Origin: Fragilariopsis cylindrus CCMP1102
Taxonomy: Eukaryota; Bacillariophyta; Bacillariophyceae; Bacillariales; Bacillariaceae
Direction: 5' to 3'
Assembly: GCA_900095095.1 (NCBI GenBank)
Contig: FMBT01000415.1
Location: 1 to 64,000 of the forward strand
DNA length: 64,000 bases
The notes below the pieces were generated by a model, which saw nothing but the letters and a program-made list of their open reading frames with translations, searched no databases and had not been told where the DNA came from. A program made the position numbers and the translations under genes. Below are positions 33,503 through 44,719 of this stretch, piece after piece (position 1 is the first letter of the stretch; each line of letters starts with the position of its first letter).

Positions 33503-33896
33503 CTAATTAACTAACTAAATAAATAACTAACTAACTAATAATTCGGAATTATTATTCATTCATTCATTCATTCTCGTAGTTTTTATAATAATTATTACTA
33601 TTATTACTATCCAAAAAGTAAAGCATAGTGCAATGTTAGCTTATTGTCGAGTTTGCAACAGGCATATTGAATATCGTATTAGTCATAGTTTTGGCAAATT
33701 GGGGGAATATACGATTTCTATATTTTGGATTCCCCCTTTACAACTTTTTCCGCGCCGCCATTTATGTCGTAAATTGCTTCCAACAAAAATCAAAGAATGC
33801 GAAACAATGTGATGGTGTGATGACGACGATGGGATCATAAAATTAGATCACCTTGCTTTGACCACAAATTCGAACAGAAGACGACAACCAAAGCAA
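33503..33896. other. Intergenic stretch, short tandem TAAC/ATTC repeats
   Basis: Directly after the EDR2-C stop there are short simple runs (CTAA-type near 33502-33540, then CATT repeats near 33555). No coding region. The promoter of the HemW-like gene should lie here. Confidence 0.5.
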
Positions 33897-35017
33897 ATGG
33901 TTGCTTCCAATTTTGCATGGATTCAGGTGGCGTGGATTGCTACTGTTATAGGTGTTACCGGTGTTTTGTCGTTTTCGTCGTCCCTCGCAATTTCTGTTGG
34001 ACCTTACGGGTGCTATAATAATAAGTACTCCGTCAGTAGTGCGCTTAGCGCCGCTACAGCTTCAGCTTCAGCCACAGCCACAGCCAAAGTAAGTACTGAG
34101 GCTGACAAACACAACAATGTAGGTTTGTATATTCATATTCCTTACTGTCGTCAACGTTGTCGGTATTGTGATTTCGCAATCGTACCGATTGGAGATCATA
34201 ACAATACTAACGAGGATGATCAACTGCGACGACGCGAAAAGGGTTTTCTTCGCATGGACAACCGGTACGTATCTGCCGTCGTTGAAGAATTGAAACAGAT
34301 AGCAGCCGATAAAAGCAACAAAAATAATTGTAACAACAACCAAAAAATACCTTTGAAATCTATATATTTCGGTGGGGGAACGCCAAGTTTGGCACCGATA
34401 GATTCGATCAAAAGAATTCTGTATCATGTTTGTGGACTGGACAATCCCGATGCACCGTTTTGTCTCTTACAACATGATGACACAACTGAAATCAGTATGG
34501 AGATGGATCCGGGAACATTCGATTTAGATCAACTGCTTGCATTGCGCACATTGGGAATCAATCGTATTTCCTTGGGCGTACAGAGTTTCGATGATGATTT
34601 GTTACAAGGAATGGGCCGTACTCATCGACGAGCTGATGTATTTCAAGCCATTAGTGATATTGCATCCGTCTTCGGAGGAGACGGCGACAACGATAACAAA
34701 GTCAATTATTCCATCGATCTGATATCTGGGGTTCCCGGCTTGACATTAGCTAAATGGGCTGAGACCTTAGAAGAGGCTACCGCTGGAATTGATAATAGCT
34801 CTATGATGACGAAAAAACAACCATTGTTGCTGTCGTCATTACCACCTCCAAGCCATATTTCTGTATATGATATGCAAATTGAAGAGGGAACGCTTTTTGG
34901 AAAATGGGCAACGGAAGCCAAAGCGGCCGCGGCCAAAAGTGGGAAGCATGATGATGACGACCATAATGATATGGATGAAGATGAATCCAGAAGTTTCACC
35001 GTGACGATACCGATCGA

Positions 35018-35051
<34 letters not shown>

Positions 35052-35908
35052 ATTGAAGTCGACACCGCCGCTGTAGTACGACAATCAAATCAACCAACCC
35101 AGCAACGTCTCCTTCGTTTACCGACAGAAGAAGAATGCGCCTTTATGTACAAGTACGCTGCGGGTTATCTCAGAGCAAAAAACTACGAACACTATGAGGT
35201 GAGCAGCTACGCCGCATTTCATGATAATAAAGACGACGACGACGACGATATTATCAGGAAAAAAAACAGCAACAAAAAGTCACCTCTTGGTTCTATCAGC
35301 AAACGCAGTCGACACAACCAAATATACTGGGATTATGATGGTCAATGGTACGCCGTCGGATTGGGTGCGACAAGCTTTGTTGAATCAAAACTGGTAGCAC
35401 GGCCAAGACAAATGAACGATTACATTGAATGGGTCATGCGCGAAAACAATGATACGAAAGCTAGTAATGTCAACAATGAAGATGAAACCGACGATAGCTT
35501 TTTGTCCGACATTATTTTGAAACGATTGAGAACAATTGATGGGCTAGATCTTACCTGGTTGGAGACCAAATTTGGAATGGAAGCCGTCGTAGCTGTGATA
35601 GATGGAGCAAAACTTGGTCTAGAATTAGGTATAGCCGAACGAACCACCGACAATATACTCCGACTCAAGGATCCAGAAGGGTAAGAAGTACATAGTATGT
35701 GTATGTGATAGATTATATATGCAGGATCTTCACTTTTGCACTGTCATTTTTGATAAAAGTAAAATGGGAACTCACCTGATGTATCTACTTTTCTTAAATT
35801 GTTTCACTGTATGATACCTTTCTTTTCTTATTTTATGCTCTTCGAAGTTTGCTTTACTCCAACTTTATTATTTCCAGTATCTTTGCAGAGTTGGGATGCA
35901 CATCGTAA
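33897..35908 (+). CDS. HemW-like radical SAM protein (RSAD1 group)
   Basis: Start at the ATG at 33897; the frame upstream begins only at a TTG. Exon 1 runs to 35680 and a 31-nt terminal exon (35878-35908, after TTCCAG) adds the last ten residues, IFAELGCTS, for 604 in total. An N-terminal hydrophobic segment (WIQVAWIATVIGVTGVLSF) precedes the core: IHIPYCRQRCRYCDF with the C-x3-C-x2-C cluster of radical SAM enzymes, YFGGGTPSLAP, EMDPGTFD, ISLGVQSFDDDLLQGMGR, DLISGVPG and HISVYDMQIEEGT. The HemN-specific fourth Cys is absent, which favours HemW, a heme chaperone, over coproporphyrinogen dehydrogenase. The C-terminal HemN domain is present (RHNQIYWDYDGQWYAVGLGA). Asp runs encoded by GAC repeats are inserted in loops. 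An organelle location is likely. Confidence 0.85.
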
Positions 35909-36224
35909 ATTATCAACGTATATTTGATTTGGAGAATTAATACAATCGTTCTTACTCAAACGCACAAAAGAGAGAAAAGATAGAGAAGAAGATATCATCG
36001 AATGGTAAATTCTACACACGCATCAAATTTATTCATAGAGATAGATAGAGAGATGCTGGTAAACTTCCCTAGAGACCATTGTTATACTTCGTGCTATTTG
36101 ATATATTTATGTCTATAATAGGAGTTCATTGATTTATGTGTGCTGTGTGTTCTTTGTTCGTTTTAATCTTCTAATTTGTAAATAAATGTATTCGTATTTT
36201 TTGGTTTGCATTATGTGTAAAATA
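35909..36224. other. Convergent 3' intergenic region
   Basis: About 315 nt between the HemW-like and ATP-grasp gene ends. It contains a short GATAGATAGA repeat near 36040 and nothing coding. Confidence 0.5.
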
Positions 36225-38835
36225 TTAGTAGATCTCATTAGAAGCCGCCTCGCTAGTAATCGATCCGATCTGGTCCAAGCCGATGATAGATGGCGATTTC
36301 ATATACCCGGCTTGCTTCTCGAATGTAAATAGTTGGTTGTTCTTTTCCATGTCCCGTATGCGTCGGATATCTTCTTCCAACACGTTCGCATCTTTGTGCA
36401 TCAAAATAACACTGCCGATACCTGTGAATAGATCCACAGTGTAGTCAACCCTGGAGCCAGGCCTTACACCAGTCTCGAGATAGACAAAGGATTGCATCTG
36501 CTTGATGTCTTCGAATCCTGGTGTTCCCTTGACAACCCCTCGCCCAAAACTTACGAGAATCACTTCTTGACCTGATGCCTTAAATGGACTTGGTGGTTTG
36601 TTGGGAATCAACGAAAATTGTCGCTTATCCAAAAAGGCGTCTACAGTGGCTTCAACTTGAGAGTAGCCACCAGTGAGGTGATTGCAAAGTGGTCTCCAAT
36701 TTCCATCACCGCCATGTGCTCTACAGTTCATTTCCACCAAACAAGGCCCATCCGGTGTCATCATCACCTCGCCGTGTGAAGGCCCGTTCTTAAATTCTAA
36801 TGCATCTAGAACACCTCGGACATAGGGAATGACAATTTTGGCTTCGAGAGACTCAGAATCGACCGGAACGCAACCAAAATAAACGAATGCTGATCCGTGA
36901 CAAGGACGTTTATCGTACACCCACACCATAACAGTTTTGTGATCCCCGTCTCGAGAAACATGGTCAACCACATATTCTTTTCCGCGCAAAAATTCTTGAC
37001 AGAGAACTGAAGGACAATCACCTCCGTTGACCATCTGACTATTCATAAGTACTCGAAAATGTTCCTCGGCTTCGTCAAAGGAATGACAAAGTTTAACTCC
37101 GTCAGATCCAGCACTCTCGGTCGGCTTCAGAACAACAGGGAACGGCTCGACTTGAAGAAAATCTTTCACATCGGCAAAGTCACTACCACCCGCTTGTCGC
37201 ACGGAACGTAGACCGTGCTTTCGTATGATTTCTTGTTGAACCTTCTTATCTCGTCGGTTGGGAATAGACGTTCCATTCGTTCGGACTTCGATGTGCTCCG
37301 AAAGAGCATCCGCGAGGTCGACACCAGCCTCTCCACCAGCCAGACAAGCCACGACGCGTAACGTTCCTGCAGCATCGTACATAGCTTGGGAGGTACCCGC
37401 CAGGGTATCCCTTTCATCAACTTCCGCTAGATAATTGAGCGTCCCACAGCTTAGCGGGATATGTTTCTTCATTTCTGGTGAAAATCCTTGGGTCCATAAC
37501 GCAATTACACTAAATCCACGCTTCATAATTTCTTCTGCCACACAACATCCTGTCGAGTATGGATCGATTAGTACTACAGCCTCTCGAGATGAATCGACTG
37601 TCGTCCCACGTTTGGTTAACATCCCCATACCACCCGATCCACCCAATTCTGGACGGTCATTTGACATGATACGAACCAAATTTGGCCCGTCCGAAGAGAA
37701 TACATGTTGGTGATGTTTCATTTCGAAATCTCCTGTAGTATTATTGCGTCGATGACTGCCGTGTGGAGATTTCGGGGGTTTCCCACCGACCACATTCTTG
37801 AACTTAACGACGGCGTCTCCGCGAGGACGTTTGAGATTTTCTAGTTTCGTTTCATACACGAAAAATCCATTGATGTCTTCTAAATACCGGACGAAATCAA
37901 TATCACGTTGCACAACATTCGGGTTCTTATGCATCAGAATCACGGAACCAATTCCTGTTACAAGATCAACGGTGTAATCGACGGTTGATCCCTTTGAAAT
38001 CATTCCATCCATATGGAGGAAACTTGGCATCATTTTTATAACATCATACCCCGGAGATGCTTTCACGATTCCTGTCGACTTATTTACGAAAATTACTTCC
38101 TGTCCAGCCGCCCTGTAGGGATACGAAGGCGTATCGGGAGTCCTAGCAAAAGCCAACGGATCGACGAATGCGTCCACTGCCATTTCAACTTGACTATATC
38201 CTCCCGTTAAAGCTTTAGCTAAAGGACGGAAGGTTCCATCTCCACCGTGAGCACGACAGTTCACTTCGACCAAACATGGTCCATCTTCCGTCATCATCAC
38301 TTCACTATGAGTAGGACCATGTAGGATTTCCATAGCATCTAAGACTCGTTTTACGTAATTGATTAGGATACTGGCTAATGGCGTGGTCGGGTCGACTGGT
38401 TTCATTCCAAAGTACACGAAATTCGCACCATTCGCTACTCGTTTGTCATAAACCCAGATCATACATAGTTTGTGTACTCCATCCCTTGAAACATTATCAA
38501 TGACGTATTCTGTTCCTTCCAAGAATTCCTGACAGAGTACAGATGGACAATCACCACCGTTGACCAATTGTCCCTTCATTAATGTTTCAAAATGATCTTT
38601 AGCATCATCAAATGTATAGCAAAGTTTTACTCCGTCAGATCCAGCACTCTCGGTCGGCTTCAAAACAACGGGAAATGATTCTGTATTCAAAAATGCTCGA
38701 ACACCTTCATCGAATTTATCGGATCCGGCTATATGTACAGAACAACAAAGAACAAAAATAAAATAAGAAAACATTTTCAATAGCATCTCCATTCTTTACT
38801 ATCCTGTATGGCAATAAAATATCTTGATTATAACG

Positions 38836-38876
<41 letters not shown>

Positions 38877-39490
38877 AGCAACAACAATAGCAACAACAAC
38901 AACAATAGAAATAATGACAATGACAATGACAAAAATGACAATAACAATAACATACCTTGTCTAACAGATCGCAATCCTGCTTGTTTACACAATTCTTGTT
39001 GTATATACTTGTCACGACGGTTTGGAATTGATGTTCCATTGGATAAAATCTTGTCGTTACTTGTTCCTGCTCTGATCCGTTCTTCTTCAAGATATTCAGA
39101 AAAGGCGTCGGCATAATCAACACCAGCTTCGCCTCCTGCCACACAGCCATAGATAGTCCGACCATCAGCAACCTGTAACAATTCTAATAATGTATCAGAA
39201 TGAGAATTTGGTTTCTGGTCGATTTGTCCAAAGTATTCCATCTTACCACATGATTTTGGTATATGTGTTTTCATTTCTTCTGCAAAACCAATCGTCCATA
39301 ATGCAACAATTAAATATCCACGTTTTTGTAATTCTTGAGCAATAACACATGCTGTACTATACGGATCAACCATAACGATAATAGGAAGTTCACGGTGTCG
39401 TTTCAACCAATTACTTTCATTACCATTACTGCTTCCACTATCACCAGCGCTGATTAAACTTGAATTTGAATTTGAATTTGAATTCGACAT
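36225..39490 (-). CDS. Double ATP-grasp ligase (tandem duplicated)
   Basis: Exon 1 is 39490-38956 and exon 2 is 38728-36225, across a 227-nt intron (GTATGT...ATATAG), for 1012 residues. The protein is two copies of one unit. Each has a pre-ATP-grasp part (VMVDPYSTACVIAQELQKRG near residue 36; VLIDPYSTGCCVAEEIMKRG near 565), then GEAGVD..A, NGTSIPNRRDK, and the ATP-grasp core. The core has FPVVLKPTESAGSDGV near residues 200 and 713, CQEFL.G.EYV, and the Mg-site Asn in VEVNCRAHGGDG near 332 and VEMNCRAHGGDG near 845. Both copies keep the ATP Lys, Gly-rich loop and Mg ligands, so both may be active. The build resembles amino-acid ligases (BacD/YwfE-like) that join amino acids through acyl phosphates; the product is unknown. 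No targeting signal is seen. Confidence 0.85.
38836..38950. repeat. AAC/CAA trinucleotide-type repeat inside the ATP-grasp intron
   Basis: About 115 nt of AAC triplets (plus strand) with later AAT/GAC variants. It occupies about half of the single intron, whose donor is at 38955. Coding-length frames across it on either strand are repeat artefacts. Confidence 0.9.
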
Positions 39491-40624
39491 CGTTACTGAT
39501 TACTATGGACTCGACGACGACGACAACAATTTTTTGTTTTCTTCCAACTTTCTTTCGCTTTCTTGTAATGTTAGTGCGGTGTGTCCCTTTTGGATGTCGT
39601 TGACTTCTTTTTGTAGACTGTGAACTTTGTGCAATATACAGTAGTGCCGATACAATAATAGAATGAATGATCGGGACACGACCACGTCTTCTATTGGAGA
39701 ATGCAGATTCACTACAGTAGTTCGCATTAAAGTAACGGATAGATGATACCGGTACTATAGGTGATGGAAGATGTATGAAATTGTTTTGTCAAAAATCCGG
39801 ATCTTTCTAATTTTCAAACACGTCAAGGAGGCGAGCTACTAGTACTTGTAGTCGTCACAATTAACACGCTATTATACGGACTGTAAACAAACAGTTCAAA
39901 GTAAATATTATATAAAGAGAAATTCAAAAATAAAGAGAGCAACTCCGATTGATTGATTCCTGCTTCGCGACATCGCGTTGCTTGCTTCTTGGTGGTCACC
40001 TTCGAAAATTCATCTTGAAAACAGTTAGTACGAATGAAAAGGCTGAAAAGCCGGTTCTACTAGTAATTGGCTGCACCAATTTCACCTCTTGCGCGTTTCG
40101 GCGTAAAGTGACGCCCTTAATTGAATAAATTAGTTTCTTTACCGGTAACACAATTTTTTTTTTTTAACTAATTCATCGTGTTAATTTTAATGCTTAATTT
40201 GTGCCGCAGCACATTTATGGCACAAATTCCTCGTGCATAAAAATACCCTCGCGCGGCACAAATTGAATAAAATTAGTTTCTTTGTTTGAAACAAATCAAA
40301 TCGTACAGGGTCGTCTTCTTCGTTCCATTTTTATTTAGCGCGCGGTAAAAAAATCGCTTCTTGGTGATCAAAAAGGCTTTACGACTCGACTCAATCGACT
40401 AGTTCGACTTTTCTATTTAAGTTGAAGACGTATCTATCAAAGCTAACAACAGTACAGGAACAAACAAGGCGTAGAACAATACGGTCGACGATCGTCTGCC
40501 GTATGTTGATTGTGCGTTCTTTACTTCTATTAAGCTACGTACAGTATCGTTACGGTATTGTTGCTATTGTTAGTAACAGTCCAAGCAGTTTTATTTAAAT
40601 AAATTTACATTATACTAATCAACA
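39491..40624. other. Divergent intergenic region upstream of the light-harvesting gene
   Basis: 1.1 kb between the ATP-grasp gene (minus) and the FCP gene (plus). It contains a duplicated block and an inverted repeat (40119-40283, listed separately). A minus-strand frame at 39503-39727 could be an upstream ORF of the ATP-grasp transcript but has no support. Confidence 0.5.
40119..40283. promoter_or_regulatory. Direct and inverted repeats in the FCP upstream region
   Basis: A 22-nt block (40119-40140) recurs at 40261-40283 with one extra A. Between them AATTTGTGCC (40196-40205) and GGCACAAATT (40219-40228) form a perfect 10-nt inverted repeat with a 13-nt loop. GGCACAAATT recurs a third time at 40255-40264. 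They lie 340-500 nt upstream of the FCP ATG, so they are candidate binding sites for light-responsive regulators, or a small duplicated insertion. Confidence 0.5.
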
Positions 40625-41754
40625 ATGATGAAGGCAACAATCCTCACTGCTCTAGTAGCAAGCGCTTCGGCTTTTGCTCCTGCTTCACAGGTACGTAAGG
40701 TTTACGGTATTAGTCATACTTGAAATTGAATTTGATTTGGATTTGGATTTGGATTTGTATATCTGAACAGTAGTATCGTATTTATGATGTGATGTGATTT
40801 ATATACAGTAGAGACAATACGCTAGTAGACGGATTGGGTTAAATTTAGTAACAGCAACAGTACGATAAATTCTCATCTCATATTATTTGCTTCCCCTCAC
40901 TTTCTTTCTCTCTCTCTCTCCTTTTTCTAAAAATATATTATATTTATTGATTCTACCGTAGACTGCTCAAAAGTCCGTTGCACTTAATGCGGAACAATTT
41001 TCAAAGGCGGTCCCTTTCTTAGTCGTACCTGATAAACTCGATGGATCCATGCCTGGTGATATGGGATTTGATCCTATGCGTCTGTAAGTAAAATATGCAC
41101 TGTTTTACATTGTATCTAATCGTGTACTACAGTATGTGAAAGGAAGGAAGATGTACATTTATTCAAAAATTAAATATTATACTCACACACACCCAATCAC
41201 TCCCTCCCTCACTCACAACATTACAATGAATACCGCAATAACACAATAATTTTGCACACACAAACATACATTTTTCCATCTATAATACTATATCAATATA
41301 CTGAACAAAACAAAAAACGATTAAAACAACACAACACAGTTCGGATATCCAAACTGATTTACGATACGCACGTTGGGCTGAAATCAAGCATGGACGTATC
41401 TGTATGCTTGCCCTTGTTGGTATGCTAGTACAACAATCTGGAATTCACTTTGCCGGTGACGCATACACCAATCCTGATATTTTTGGTGCAGTCAAAAGTG
41501 TTGGATTTGGTGTTAATGTACAAATTTTTTTAACAATCGGTATCATTGAAGCAGGCAACTTTTACAAGCATTATGACGATGAAACTATTCCCGGTAACAT
41601 TGAATGGGGATCATCAGTTTTGACTAACTTATCACCAGAAAAGCAATTATGGCGTCAAGAACAAGAAATCGTTCATGGACGTCTTGCTATGATCGCATTT
41701 GTTGGTGCACTTGTCCAGACAGCTATCTTCGATAAACCACTTTTGTCATTTTAA
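40625..41754 (+). CDS. Fucoxanthin chlorophyll a/c-binding light-harvesting protein
   Basis: Three exons (40625-40690, 40962-41083, 41340-41754) with GTACGT/GTAAGT donors and TAG/CAG acceptors give 200 residues, the usual FCP size. The leader MMKATILTALVASASAFAPA is a signal peptide with the ASAFAP cleavage motif that directs import into the complex plastid. The mature part has DGSMPGDMGFDP, helix 1 with YARWAEIKHGRICMLA and helix 3 with EQEIVHGRLAMIAFVGALVQ. The two E-x-x-x-GR motifs bind chlorophyll and pair the helices, and the middle helix is NVQIFLTIGIIEAG. The protein sits in the thylakoid membrane, harvesting blue-green light. The subclass (Lhcf, Lhcr, Lhcx) is not decided by eye. The first exon ends exactly after the transit motif, so leader and mature protein are on separate exons. 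Confidence 0.95.
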
Positions 41755-42451
41755 ATACATACCGTACTTACTGTAGCAAAAAAGAGCGTAAGGCCTTTTT
41801 CTTCCTTAAGAAAGAGAAGATCTTAGAAAGAGAAGATAGATAAACCATTACACATGTACTACTTTGTACAAGCAAGATCAAACAAATACACAACCGATTC
41901 TTTTTCGTTGCCTTTCATTTCTGTATTATTATAATTAGAATGCGTAGTTCTCGTTTATATAGGACTACTGTAGCTAGTATTTCTTGTAATAATACACCAA
42001 CGGTATTACATTCGAGCAAGGTAATATGAGAGGGGGAATGAGAACAAAACAAATCCATACTAGTGCAAATAGGAGTTATTCAAGTATCAATGTAGATGCT
42101 GTGATACTACCGTAGTCGTATATCCGTTCATCTTTACCGTGTATGCAATCTACTGACGTCTTGGTCCGTTCATGAAAGGAAAACTCACAGCCAGCCAGCC
42201 AGCAAAACGACCAATGTCTGTTACTATTGTTTGTTAACGCTTCTGTTTTGAAGAGTATCCACCACAAGATTTAACTAGCTACTACTATTAGGAAGAACAA
42301 GAGGAAAACGTAATCGTACTACCACAGTAGTTGTTAATAAATCTTTAATATCTATAGATAATCGATTAGTGCAAAATATATGTCAATCGTTATACTGCCT
42401 TTTTTCTCTTCTTCTACTACTCTCCCTCTTTATTCATATTCATATTCATAT
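41755..42451. other. Intergenic stretch, nothing recognised
   Basis: Convergent 3' region of the FCP gene and the next minus-strand gene. No coding frame with support; AT-rich with a short TTCATA run near 42430. Confidence 0.5.
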
Positions 42452-44719
42452 TCACAAGTAAGTGTGATTTCCTTCGATCATACGGGTCAAAGCTTCCGCA
42501 GCTACAGTTTGTGATTCAGACGTTAATGACGATACATTATGTTCGTTGTAATCGTGTCGACGAAGATTGCTGTTTCCCGTATTAATGTTGCTATTGAATT
42601 TATTTATTTCATTTCGTTTTTCTTGTTGATGTTCTTGCTCTTGTTGTGATTGTGATTGCGGAGTTAGAACATCCACCACATCAAAAATCCCTAAATGTGG
42701 GACGCGTCGACTGACATCATCGTTGACTTGACTCTTATTATCTTTACTATTATCACTACTGCTATTGTTTCTTATAGCTTCGCCCTTGTTGTTCGTATCG
42801 TCGCCGTCTTCGGGGGGATCGTCAATAGAAGAATCATCACTCGCTGAGTATTTATGAGGATTCTTGTTGTTGTTATTGTTGTTGATTTCGTAACAACCGT
42901 CAACTTTCTGTACTTCTTTCTGCTGTTGATGAATAGAATTTGTAACCTCCCGATTGTGACTGTGATTATTATAACTGTGGTGTGTATCATGCTTATTATC
43001 GTTAGATTTAGCTGCTAGTGACAACATGACGGCAGCTGCCCCTGCGCTTCTCTGCGAAAAAATCATTGTCGAATCATCCGTACTTGCAGAACCCGCTATT
43101 ACTGACCGCGATGACGATTCGCTACTACCAGTCCGAGAAAGATCAGACTTTGACTTTAATTTTAAATTTCTATCCTGCTGCTGCTGCTGCTGCTGTTCGT
43201 TACCTATAGTCAATTCTTTTCCTGCTTGATCGTTCGCGATAATATTTTTACCTTCCATCACGAAAAGTTTTTCACAGAATTCCTTTAATGGTATCATGAC
43301 TTCCTCGAGAGATAATAAAGAATGATCGTCGTCGCCGTTGCCTTCATCATCACCACCAGCACTTTGATCATATGAACCCTTCTTATCATCATCATTCTCG
43401 TTTTTGCTTTTGCTGATGTTGTCGCCACCACCAGTCCTTACAACGGTAGAGAAAGACGACGAAACTTGACTTTCTTTATTGTTCTTTTTACTATTTGTAG
43501 CAGCTGTGGTAGCGGCAAATAATTTTATCTTGCTAGACGATGACGATAACGCCGTCGTATCTTTTTCTTCGATATAACCACCATTATTATTATTATTATT
43601 ATTATTATTGTTATTATTATCATTGCCACTACCACTACCACCGTCATGTTCATTATTATCGCGAGGAAAACAGAAGATTTTCAAAAATGATCTTATCCGT
43701 TTCGATAAATGGTCTTGTAATTCGGCAAGTGCAATCTTTTCTTCTGCCAGTATCTGAACAGGTGAAGAAGAAGAAGAAGAAGAAGGAGGTTTTTTTCTTC
43801 TACGGCTGCCACCATCATTCATATCTTCATCATCTTCTCCTTCTTCGTCTTCTTCTTGTTTCTCACAACAATCAATCATATGCATAAAGCATTCTCGGTT
43901 TTGATCAGCAGAATTTTCCAAATCGGACACACAGAAATATTGTAATTCATATGTCAACTGTGTCATTCGATTGTATATGTAGTGAAGTATATTATTATTC
44001 TGATGGTGGTTTTGTTCAGAAATGGGTATGTGTACTTGTTGTTGTTGTTGTTGTTGTCGGCGGCGGATTGGTTGCTGCGGTTGGTTTTGTTGTTCCATTA
44101 CGTCCAGTATTGGTCCTAATGTTGTCAACCATGGATTCTTCCAGGGAGCTGGTGTATTTCTAATAGTAGTATTTGTAGTAGTGTTGGGTTCTTTTTCTTC
44201 GCCTTCATTATCATCTTCCTGATGTTTTCCTTGCAATAATACATCACGACGGAATCGTTGAGCATATCGTTGTCTATTTAATACAGTACCTGCTAAATCT
44301 ACCAAGACATCAATTTCTTGCGCTAATAATGTAACTCGAAGGAATTTATCTACTTCAGGACGTGTCAATAGGGGTCGTTGTTGTCGACGATTTGTTACTT
44401 TATTATCTCGATCGGTATCCGTTTCTTTATTTTCACTACCTCCCACCTGACGAAATAGAATTTCGACCGGTACTCCCAAGATCGATTCAACAGAAGAACA
44501 ATAGTATTCGTCATCATCATCATCACATGCTAATAATGGATTCGTTTCGTTATCATTTTGGATGTCTTTGATACTATCAGTATTTGTTGTAGTCGTATCA
44601 CGAGTAATTGTAGCCGCCATCATCGTATCATTTTCAACTGCCCCATCTATAGCTAGTTGTAGACGCTGTCGTTTGGAGGATGGAGGTTGCATACCATGGT
44701 GATCACGATCCGAGGACAT
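42452..44719 (-). CDS. Low-complexity hypothetical protein
   Basis: A 755-residue open frame without introns, ATG at 44719. A more ordered N-terminal third contains SSVESILGVPVEILFRQVGG, RPEVDKFLRVTLLAQEIDVL and VDLAGTVLNRQRYAQRFRRD, then YIYNRMTQLTYELQYFCVSD and ALAELQDHLSKRIRSFLKIF, which look helical. The rest is Asn, Ser, Gln and Asp runs. There is no signal peptide, membrane segment or motif I recognise. The long uninterrupted frame in an otherwise stop-rich region, and the start context, support a real gene. Nuclear localisation is possible from the SSKRQRLQ patch near residue 14. Function unknown. Confidence 0.6.
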   Translation of the reverse strand: MSSDRDHHGMQPPSSKRQRLQLAIDGAVENDTMMAATITRDTTTTNTDSIKDIQNDNETNPLLACDDDDDEYYCSSVESILGVPVEILFRQVGGSENKETDTDRDNKVTNRRQQRPLLTRPEVDKFLRVTLLAQEIDVLVDLAGTVLNRQRYAQRFRRDVLLQGKHQEDDNEGEEKEPNTTTNTTIRNTPAPWKNPWLTTLGPILDVMEQQNQPQQPIRRRQQQQQQQVHIPISEQNHHQNNNILHYIYNRMTQLTYELQYFCVSDLENSADQNRECFMHMIDCCEKQEEDEEGEDDEDMNDGGSRRRKKPPSSSSSSSPVQILAEEKIALAELQDHLSKRIRSFLKIFCFPRDNNEHDGGSGSGNDNNNNNNNNNNNNGGYIEEKDTTALSSSSSKIKLFAATTAATNSKKNNKESQVSSSFSTVVRTGGGDNISKSKNENDDDKKGSYDQSAGGDDEGNGDDDHSLLSLEEVMIPLKEFCEKLFVMEGKNIIANDQAGKELTIGNEQQQQQQQDRNLKLKSKSDLSRTGSSESSSRSVIAGSASTDDSTMIFSQRSAGAAAVMLSLAAKSNDNKHDTHHSYNNHSHNREVTNSIHQQQKEVQKVDGCYEINNNNNNKNPHKYSASDDSSIDDPPEDGDDTNNKGEAIRNNSSSDNSKDNKSQVNDDVSRRVPHLGIFDVVDVLTPQSQSQQEQEHQQEKRNEINKFNSNINTGNSNLRRHDYNEHNVSSLTSESQTVAAEALTRMIEGNHTYL

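Follow-up and report, generated by a model that had tools for sequence, protein, structure and literature searches.

Does a single diatom gene carry two complete ligases in one polypeptide, and are both of them in use? The question is raised by a minus-strand gene at positions 39490-36225 of a 64,000-nucleotide (nt) stretch of the Fragilariopsis cylindrus CCMP1102 genome (contig FMBT01000415.1, positions 1 to 64,000), which we refer to as the window. An initial annotation, made from the sequence alone, had described this gene as a tandem double ATP-grasp enzyme with both copies apparently active, and as a candidate for an undescribed kind of enzyme. We found two complete ATP-grasp units in its product, and consider it likely, from sequence comparison and a predicted structure, that the protein works as an L-amino acid ligase twice over, a single chain carrying two carboxylate-amine ligase units with a flexible linker between them. 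The family is already known in diatoms; what appears to be new here is an old tandem of two seemingly active units.

Structure of the tandem gene

The splice model and translation give a 1,013-residue spliced product from two exons and one GT-AG intron; there is no single open frame, as the intron splits the first (N) unit between SVRQ and AG. Exon 1 (38956-39490; all features of the gene are on the minus strand) holds the start codon at 39490, a low-complexity N-terminus and the pre-ATP-grasp domain of the N unit, and is matched by the family model NF005543 at 4.2e-10. The 227-nt intron (38729-38955, GTATGT...ATATAG) is rich in TTG repeats and has canonical splice sites. Exon 2 (36225-38728) is an uninterrupted frame, intact from the ATP-grasp domain of the N unit across the linker into the second (C) unit, all of which it encodes, ending in a stop codon at 36227-36225. 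The N unit comprises residues 35-473 (37845-39388, intron included) as judged by half-versus-half alignment, NF005543 and tree position, and the C unit residues 560-984 (36312-37586) as judged by a structure model, Foldseek and NF005543. The tandem arrangement proposed earlier therefore holds, with two complete pre-ATP-grasp/ATP-grasp units at that place and on that strand, once it is amended for the intron that interrupts the first unit. Within the intron, a long CAA/TTG-type repeat (38828-38950) gives rise to spurious frames on both strands.

The genome (67.9 Mb in 818 contigs) has 27 matching places for the silicon transporter family, which had none in 14 control genomes, in keeping with a diatom. 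Searched as a whole for the ligase, it returned 25 matching places, among which is a second tandem gene of 933 residues and five exons on the 1.02-Mb contig C324. Its N and C units are 65% and 69% identical to those of the window gene. The two halves of this second gene share one intron position and phase, within the Gly codon that follows GGE[A/T]. A further intron, in its N unit, lies at the place in the protein that corresponds to the only intron of the window gene, shifted by one base.

Each unit resembles an L-amino acid ligase

When the halves were searched separately, NF005543 (PRK07206), an uncharacterised subfamily of ATP-grasp ligases with the same length and domain order as each unit, matched both over nearly the full length of the model (C unit, 283.2 bits over 409 of 416 positions; N unit, 272.0 bits over 405 of 416), and PF13535 (ATP-grasp_4) exceeded its cut-off in each (45 and 46 bits, against 27). 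A sequence search of the Protein Data Bank (PDB) gave the L-amino acid ligase 30vh as best match (4.4e-46), followed by BL00235 (1.7e-10), then by glycinamide ribonucleotide synthetases and BacD. A family profile (A3) built from a 42-row alignment of relatives matched 30vh end to end (400 bits, 1.3e-118), BL00235 with 127 bits, RizA with 96 and BacD with 70-72. From the same alignment, a structure model of the C unit (36267-37586) was obtained with a predicted local distance difference test score (pLDDT) of 88.6 and a predicted template modelling score (pTM) of 0.89. Compared by Foldseek with solved structures, this model had L-amino acid ligases at ranks 1-6 (3vot, BacD/YwfE and RizA); 30vh was not among its best 50 matches.

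The architecture of L-amino acid ligases, a pre-ATP-grasp domain followed by ATP-grasp and C-terminal domains over about 420 residues, is present in the C unit, for which the whole-unit model was made. The catalytic Lys, Glu and Arg residues align with those of BL00235 (3vot), BacD/YwfE (3vmm, 3wnz, 3wo1), RizA (4wd3) and 30vh, and the first three share the predicted C-unit fold. To our knowledge, characterised L-amino acid ligases have one unit per polypeptide, and these four are each a single unit of 413-474 residues, whereas the diatom protein departs from the type in having two units in one frame. By sequence and predicted fold, each unit is thus L-amino-acid-ligase-like, and neither is a formal member of NF005543 or of DdaF.

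Several observations weigh against this reading. Each unit alone scores below the curated NF005543 cut-off of 302 bits; the 498.3 bits found on the exon-2 chain are a sum over both units, and only this sum passes. The next-best model, DdaF (NF041595), reaches 149.8 bits in the C unit and 143.5 in the N unit against a cut-off of 840, and GARS_A and ATP-grasp_3 pass in each unit as ATP-grasp_4 does. Pfam LAL_C2 stays below its cut-off, in one stretch of the C unit (23.5 against 29.4 bits), and a scan of each unit by itself at E 0.001 did not show it; for this branch the domain is of little diagnostic value, because the bacterial relative P0002 lacks it too at E 1e-5. The best segments of prokaryotic relatives are 23-37% identical, too low a level for substrates to be carried over from them. 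The five window frames that we scanned include no biosynthetic or dapdiamide-pathway neighbour. Moreover, parts of the ligase family decay in this genome: the first domain of a single-unit paralog changes frame on each of the two contigs that carry it, C335 (3481-4356) and C81, the cause being either decay to a pseudogene or an assembly error; C674 carries a decayed single unit with an in-frame stop; and fragments with stops and lost segments occur on C682, C464 and C117. Finally, the exon-2 chain scores 29.7 bits with CPSase_L_D2, above the cut-off of 19.8.

This last match would suit a carbamoyl-phosphate synthase (CPS)-like double enzyme, in which an intermediate made by one half is channelled to the other. 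Such an enzyme also has duplicated ATP-grasp halves in one chain, CarB being named as the two-domain case in part of a survey of prokaryotic ATP-grasp proteins (PMC11915815), and our family profile matches CPS large chains in the PDB as well (59 bits, 3.4e-15). The same profile, however, gives 400 bits for 30vh, and the CPS large-chain model TIGR01369 reaches 32 bits against a cut-off of 1027. CPSase_L_D2 was found in neither unit alone at E 0.001, no CPS chain is among the 11 PDB sequence matches, and whole units match amino acid ligases, which do far better than CarB by profile and structure and leave a distant superfamily similarity to the latter. Nor is a fixed channel seen, as the linker is predicted to be disordered and a model of the exon-2 product (833 residues, lacking the first domain of the N unit) has a pTM of 0.56 and does not fix the relative position of the units. 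In the Pfam, NCBIfam and PDB sequence searches, neither a CPS-like nor a characterised double ligase matched over the full length, and we regard a CPS-like mechanism as extremely improbable.

The units might also be carboxylate-amine ligases of the same fold of which one or both use a non-amino-acid acid or some other amine. The nearest equivalog with a name is DdaF of Pantoea, a ligase of the same type with about 28% identity to the C unit, and bacterial relatives occur in antibiotic-like clusters, as does ddaF with ddaG and a nonribosomal peptide synthetase (NRPS) gene; in Pantoea alfalfae, three ATP-grasp genes are consecutive. DdaF itself is a single-unit protein encoded in an antibiotic gene cluster, whereas nothing of this kind was seen in the frames scanned around the diatom gene. 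As the nearest solved structures are amino acid ligases, and the substrate is not readable from sequence at the identities given above, we hold this alternative to be possible, although on balance unlikely.

Conservation of both active sites

The reading of the protein as two amino acid ligases gains from the state of its active sites. The ATP-binding loop KPTESAGSDGV and the metal-site block that the initial annotation had claimed for each half are present in both. Alignment of the copies places the loop at 38628-38660 (N unit) and 37095-37127 (C unit), and the metal/catalytic block, recognised by its conserved positions, is VEVNCRAHGGDG at 38235-38270 in the N unit and VEMNCRAHGGDG at 36702-36737 in the C unit. 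All four units of the two tandem genes have K114, K154, E273, E285, N287 and R289 (C-unit numbering), and five of these six, N287 being the exception, show little or no variation in the 42-row family alignment. In alignments with BacD and BL00235, these five fall on the lysines of the ATP site, the metal glutamates and the arginine, which we take to be the ATP-binding lysines, Mg-binding glutamates and catalytic arginine. A total of 38 compared positions are identical in all four tandem units, a count that is no test, since most of them were picked for invariance in those same units. Because the active-site residues have survived while two paralogous genes diverged over a long time, both units appear to be used, as had been suggested.

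An arrangement in which one unit alone is catalytic, and the other acts as a regulatory or structural partner in a built-in (pseudo)dimer that replaces a homodimer, has some evidence on its side. Two-unit enzymes often specialise, at 23 positions the N units of the two tandem genes share one residue and the C units another, and the C unit of the second gene shows small drift, with the ATP loop KPNEAAGSEGV and the metal block VEMNVRTHGGDG. Yet the six positions listed above have been kept in all four units although synonymous sites between the two window units are apparently saturated, and we think this arrangement rather improbable. The 23 positions would suit two different substrate preferences among two active units, and are also expected from neutral divergence; the protein may also consist of two independent units kept for dosage.

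In BacD, Trp332 narrows the amino-acid pocket, and Pro85 of BL00235 is likewise described as an important residue, in passages of PMC6920838. By our reading of the alignments and of the chain numbering, Trp332 corresponds to a glycine in the C unit and Pro85 to an alanine in both window units. The amino-acid pockets are thus probably wide.

Age of the fusion

In an 18-row tree, the N units of the window gene and the second tandem gene form one pair (support 96/93) and their C units another (100/98), with the single-unit paralog as sister to the latter pair (98/98). The same N/N and C/C pairs are recovered in a quick tree of 91 rows, where a long-branch warning concerns other rows. A recent internal duplication is ruled out, as forcing the two window units together costs 79.5 log-likelihood units (P = 1.56e-07, approximately unbiased (AU) test). 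By these trees the fusion is old, and the duplication predates the split of the window gene from the second tandem gene in the same genome. A clade of the four tandem units that leaves aside the single-unit paralog is weakly rejected (P = 0.014, AU test; the grouping was tested after the first tree had been seen), and given this weak result we make no choice between a joining of two already diverged genes and a later loss of one unit in the paralog. The diatom clade lies on a long branch (1.33), so its nearest prokaryotic relative is unsure.

We also considered whether two adjoining single genes have been read as one through an artefact of assembly or annotation. The assembly is redundant, with indel differences between contigs: positions 4000-13500 of contig C207 are a haplotig or assembly duplicate of window positions 33539-43043, with no mismatches and 10 gap positions over 9.5 kb. 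The frame is nevertheless open across the junction, both redundant contigs agree, and the linker is conserved at the protein level in the second tandem locus, on the contig of 1.02 Mb, which makes an artefact very improbable.

A short tract shared by the two halves

The N and C units share 57.6% of amino acids and 59.4% of nucleotides over 429 aligned residues. The initial annotation had noted a 34-nt identity between them over the ATP loop, and had offered gene conversion or codon-level constraint as explanations. The identity is real, and at exactly 34 nt is the longest between the halves; half-versus-half comparison confirms its lower copy at 37096-37129 and moves the upper copy by 11 nt, from 38640-38673 to 38629-38662. 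To assess chance, we ran 2,000 simulations in which codons were redrawn from the gene's own usage at shared residues and other positions were treated roughly. The mean longest run was 14.4 nt and only one simulation reached 34 nt; the tract thus exceeds chance, at about 1 in 2,000. Elsewhere, of the 247 residues that the units share, 100 have the same codon where codon usage predicts 104.8, and synonymous sites outside the tract look saturated.

Within a block of 16 codons around the ATP loop, the two window units share 46 of 48 bases. The other pairs among seven copies share 28 to 36, orthologous pairs included (33 and 30); this comparison leaves aside C335 against C81, two contigs with the same gene (48 of 48). 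The first serine of the loop is AGT in both window units and TCG in the N unit of the second tandem gene, in C335, C81 and C674, and is replaced by alanine in the C unit of the second tandem gene. Codon-level constraint can be ruled out, because it would act on all copies, and the second tandem gene, C335/C81 and C674 encode the same residues with other codons; a local transfer between two units would not act in this way. Of the two explanations offered, gene conversion is the one that fits, and the tract is best read as a short conversion, one event in one gene.

The linker

The two units are joined by a linker of about 85 residues that is predicted to be disordered (residues 474-559; 37587-37844). 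It contains the motif FSSDGPNLVRIMSNDRPEL at 37700-37644, which is identical at 17 of 19 positions in the second tandem gene; the remainder of the linker differs in length and sequence. As the linkers of both tandem genes are conserved at the protein level (70%, E 2.8e-13), the linker is evidently translated through. Three runs of a similar kind, [R/K]-x-[I/V/L]-S, occur in the C-terminal tail of the single-unit paralog as APFLQKTISLRKT, DGPPTMIRTVSLQKT and SSGPSMLRTLSIQKE, a likeness that was judged by eye, since sequence searches of linker against tail and of tail against linker did not find each other. The linker may therefore derive from a tail that once ended the first unit. Kinases commonly recognise R-x-x-S, and one might guess that the linker is controlled by phosphorylation.

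Relatives outside this genome

Tandem relatives were sought among prokaryotes and viruses. In bacterial and archaeal contigs, profile A1 gave 42 stretches, none of which was confirmed, and profile A2 gave 251, of which 82 were confirmed and 80 kept. In viral contigs, the linker plus C unit had no match, none of 121 stretches was confirmed for A1, and the one confirmed among 92 for A2 is single-unit. None of these 81 loci (80 bacterial or archaeal and one on a viral contig) has a second copy in the best-hit frame, although some loci are truncated where the contig ends, and in several a separate copy lies nearby. We also drew even samples from four phyla (398, 396, 392 and 392 genomes; 1,578 in total) and applied thresholds of 1e-60 or 1e-50. 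A match was present in 26 genomes, including four centre genomes chosen for having one, and none of the 29 places among the matches listed has two units in a shared frame. The sampled prokaryotic relatives, NF005543 members among them, thus appear to be single-unit, with one unit per frame where the diatom protein has two.

Two long frames were tried as tandems and rejected. The longest prokaryotic frame in the sampled genomes, and the only one long enough for a tandem (L125, 97-2958, minus strand, 953-958 residues, from the alphaproteobacterium-centred sample), combines an NF005543-type ligase (484 bits) with the catalytic domain of a glutamine synthetase, and a 705-residue frame of a Methanospirillum metagenome-assembled genome (L089, 203-2317, plus strand) joins an NF005543-type ligase to a methyltransferase domain. 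In four bacterial frames of about 830 residues, Pfam matches at E 1e-5 are confined to the families of the ligase unit; these are probably just long GC-rich open frames. A phage search gave four records with partial matches, and plasmid searches gave 261 and 246 records, in which tandems were not sought row by row; six regions (L028-L033) were retrieved. In one of these, on a Pantoea alfalfae plasmid (L029, 3828-7488), a trio of ATP-grasp genes lies near genes for a dioxygenase, an aminotransferase and a flavin mononucleotide (FMN) monooxygenase, and looks like a small peptide pathway.

Among eukaryotes, diatoms, haptophytes and Symbiodiniaceae are stated in sections of PMC8399598 to carry the family as 'dapdiamide A synthase', with a suggested antibacterial role. 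The diatom sequences of that study, which are linked to the present gene by family name, form one clade with the haptophyte and dinoflagellate ones, and the words tandem, domain and ATP-grasp are absent from its main text. Since diatom relatives have thus already been named, and the units resemble L-amino acid ligases by PDB searches, Foldseek and NF005543, the suggestion of an undescribed kind of enzyme has to be given up. No description of a tandem L-amino acid ligase was found among the matches listed from open-licence papers.

How the tandem ligase might work

In L-amino acid ligases, ATP activates one amino acid as an acyl phosphate, which is attacked by the amino group of another (passages of PMC6920838 and PMC12568646). 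By likeness to these enzymes, each unit of the diatom protein would bind Mg-ATP and phosphorylate a carboxylate, probably that of an amino acid or small acid; an amine, probably of an amino acid, would then attack the acyl phosphate to give an amide and ADP. We infer this activity, the order of its steps and the substrates from the sequence. The likeliest use of the fusion would be the formation of two successive or paired amide bonds by one protein, and two coupled ligations are the natural reading of its architecture. Tentatively, and with more doubt than belief, the protein could be seen as a eukaryotic ATP-grasp assembly line, in which two differently specialised units form successive amide bonds to yield a tripeptide or pseudotripeptide of defined make-up, with no need of a ribosome, NRPS or carrier protein, and in which the intermediate is passed along a linker bearing a conserved, possibly phosphorylated RxxS control motif.

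Amide-bond biocatalysis uses stand-alone ATP-grasp ligases, and in the bacterial pathways compared here two bonds are made by two separate proteins, DdaG and DdaF (in part of PMC12568646) or PhtQ and PhtU (in part of PMC4530439). If both units are active, the diatom protein would provide a natural two-step ligase and a starting point in the search for unknown small diatom peptides. It also raises the question of what algae make with a family that is labelled an antibiotic synthase by similarity.

Neighbouring genes and distant relatives

The five frames scanned in the window encode a radical SAM protein, a chlorophyll a/b-binding protein, an EDR2_C protein, an RNA methyltransferase and a protein with no Pfam match. 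The first of these (33813-35681, plus strand) is HemN-like by eye, has long aspartate-rich insertions and lies tail to tail with the ligase gene. Elsewhere in the genome, more distant relatives of the ligase occur on C245 and on C356/C209; the latter (1900-4000 on C356) is a single ATP-grasp ligase with acidic low-complexity inserts, in which a VEVNCRQH block is kept.

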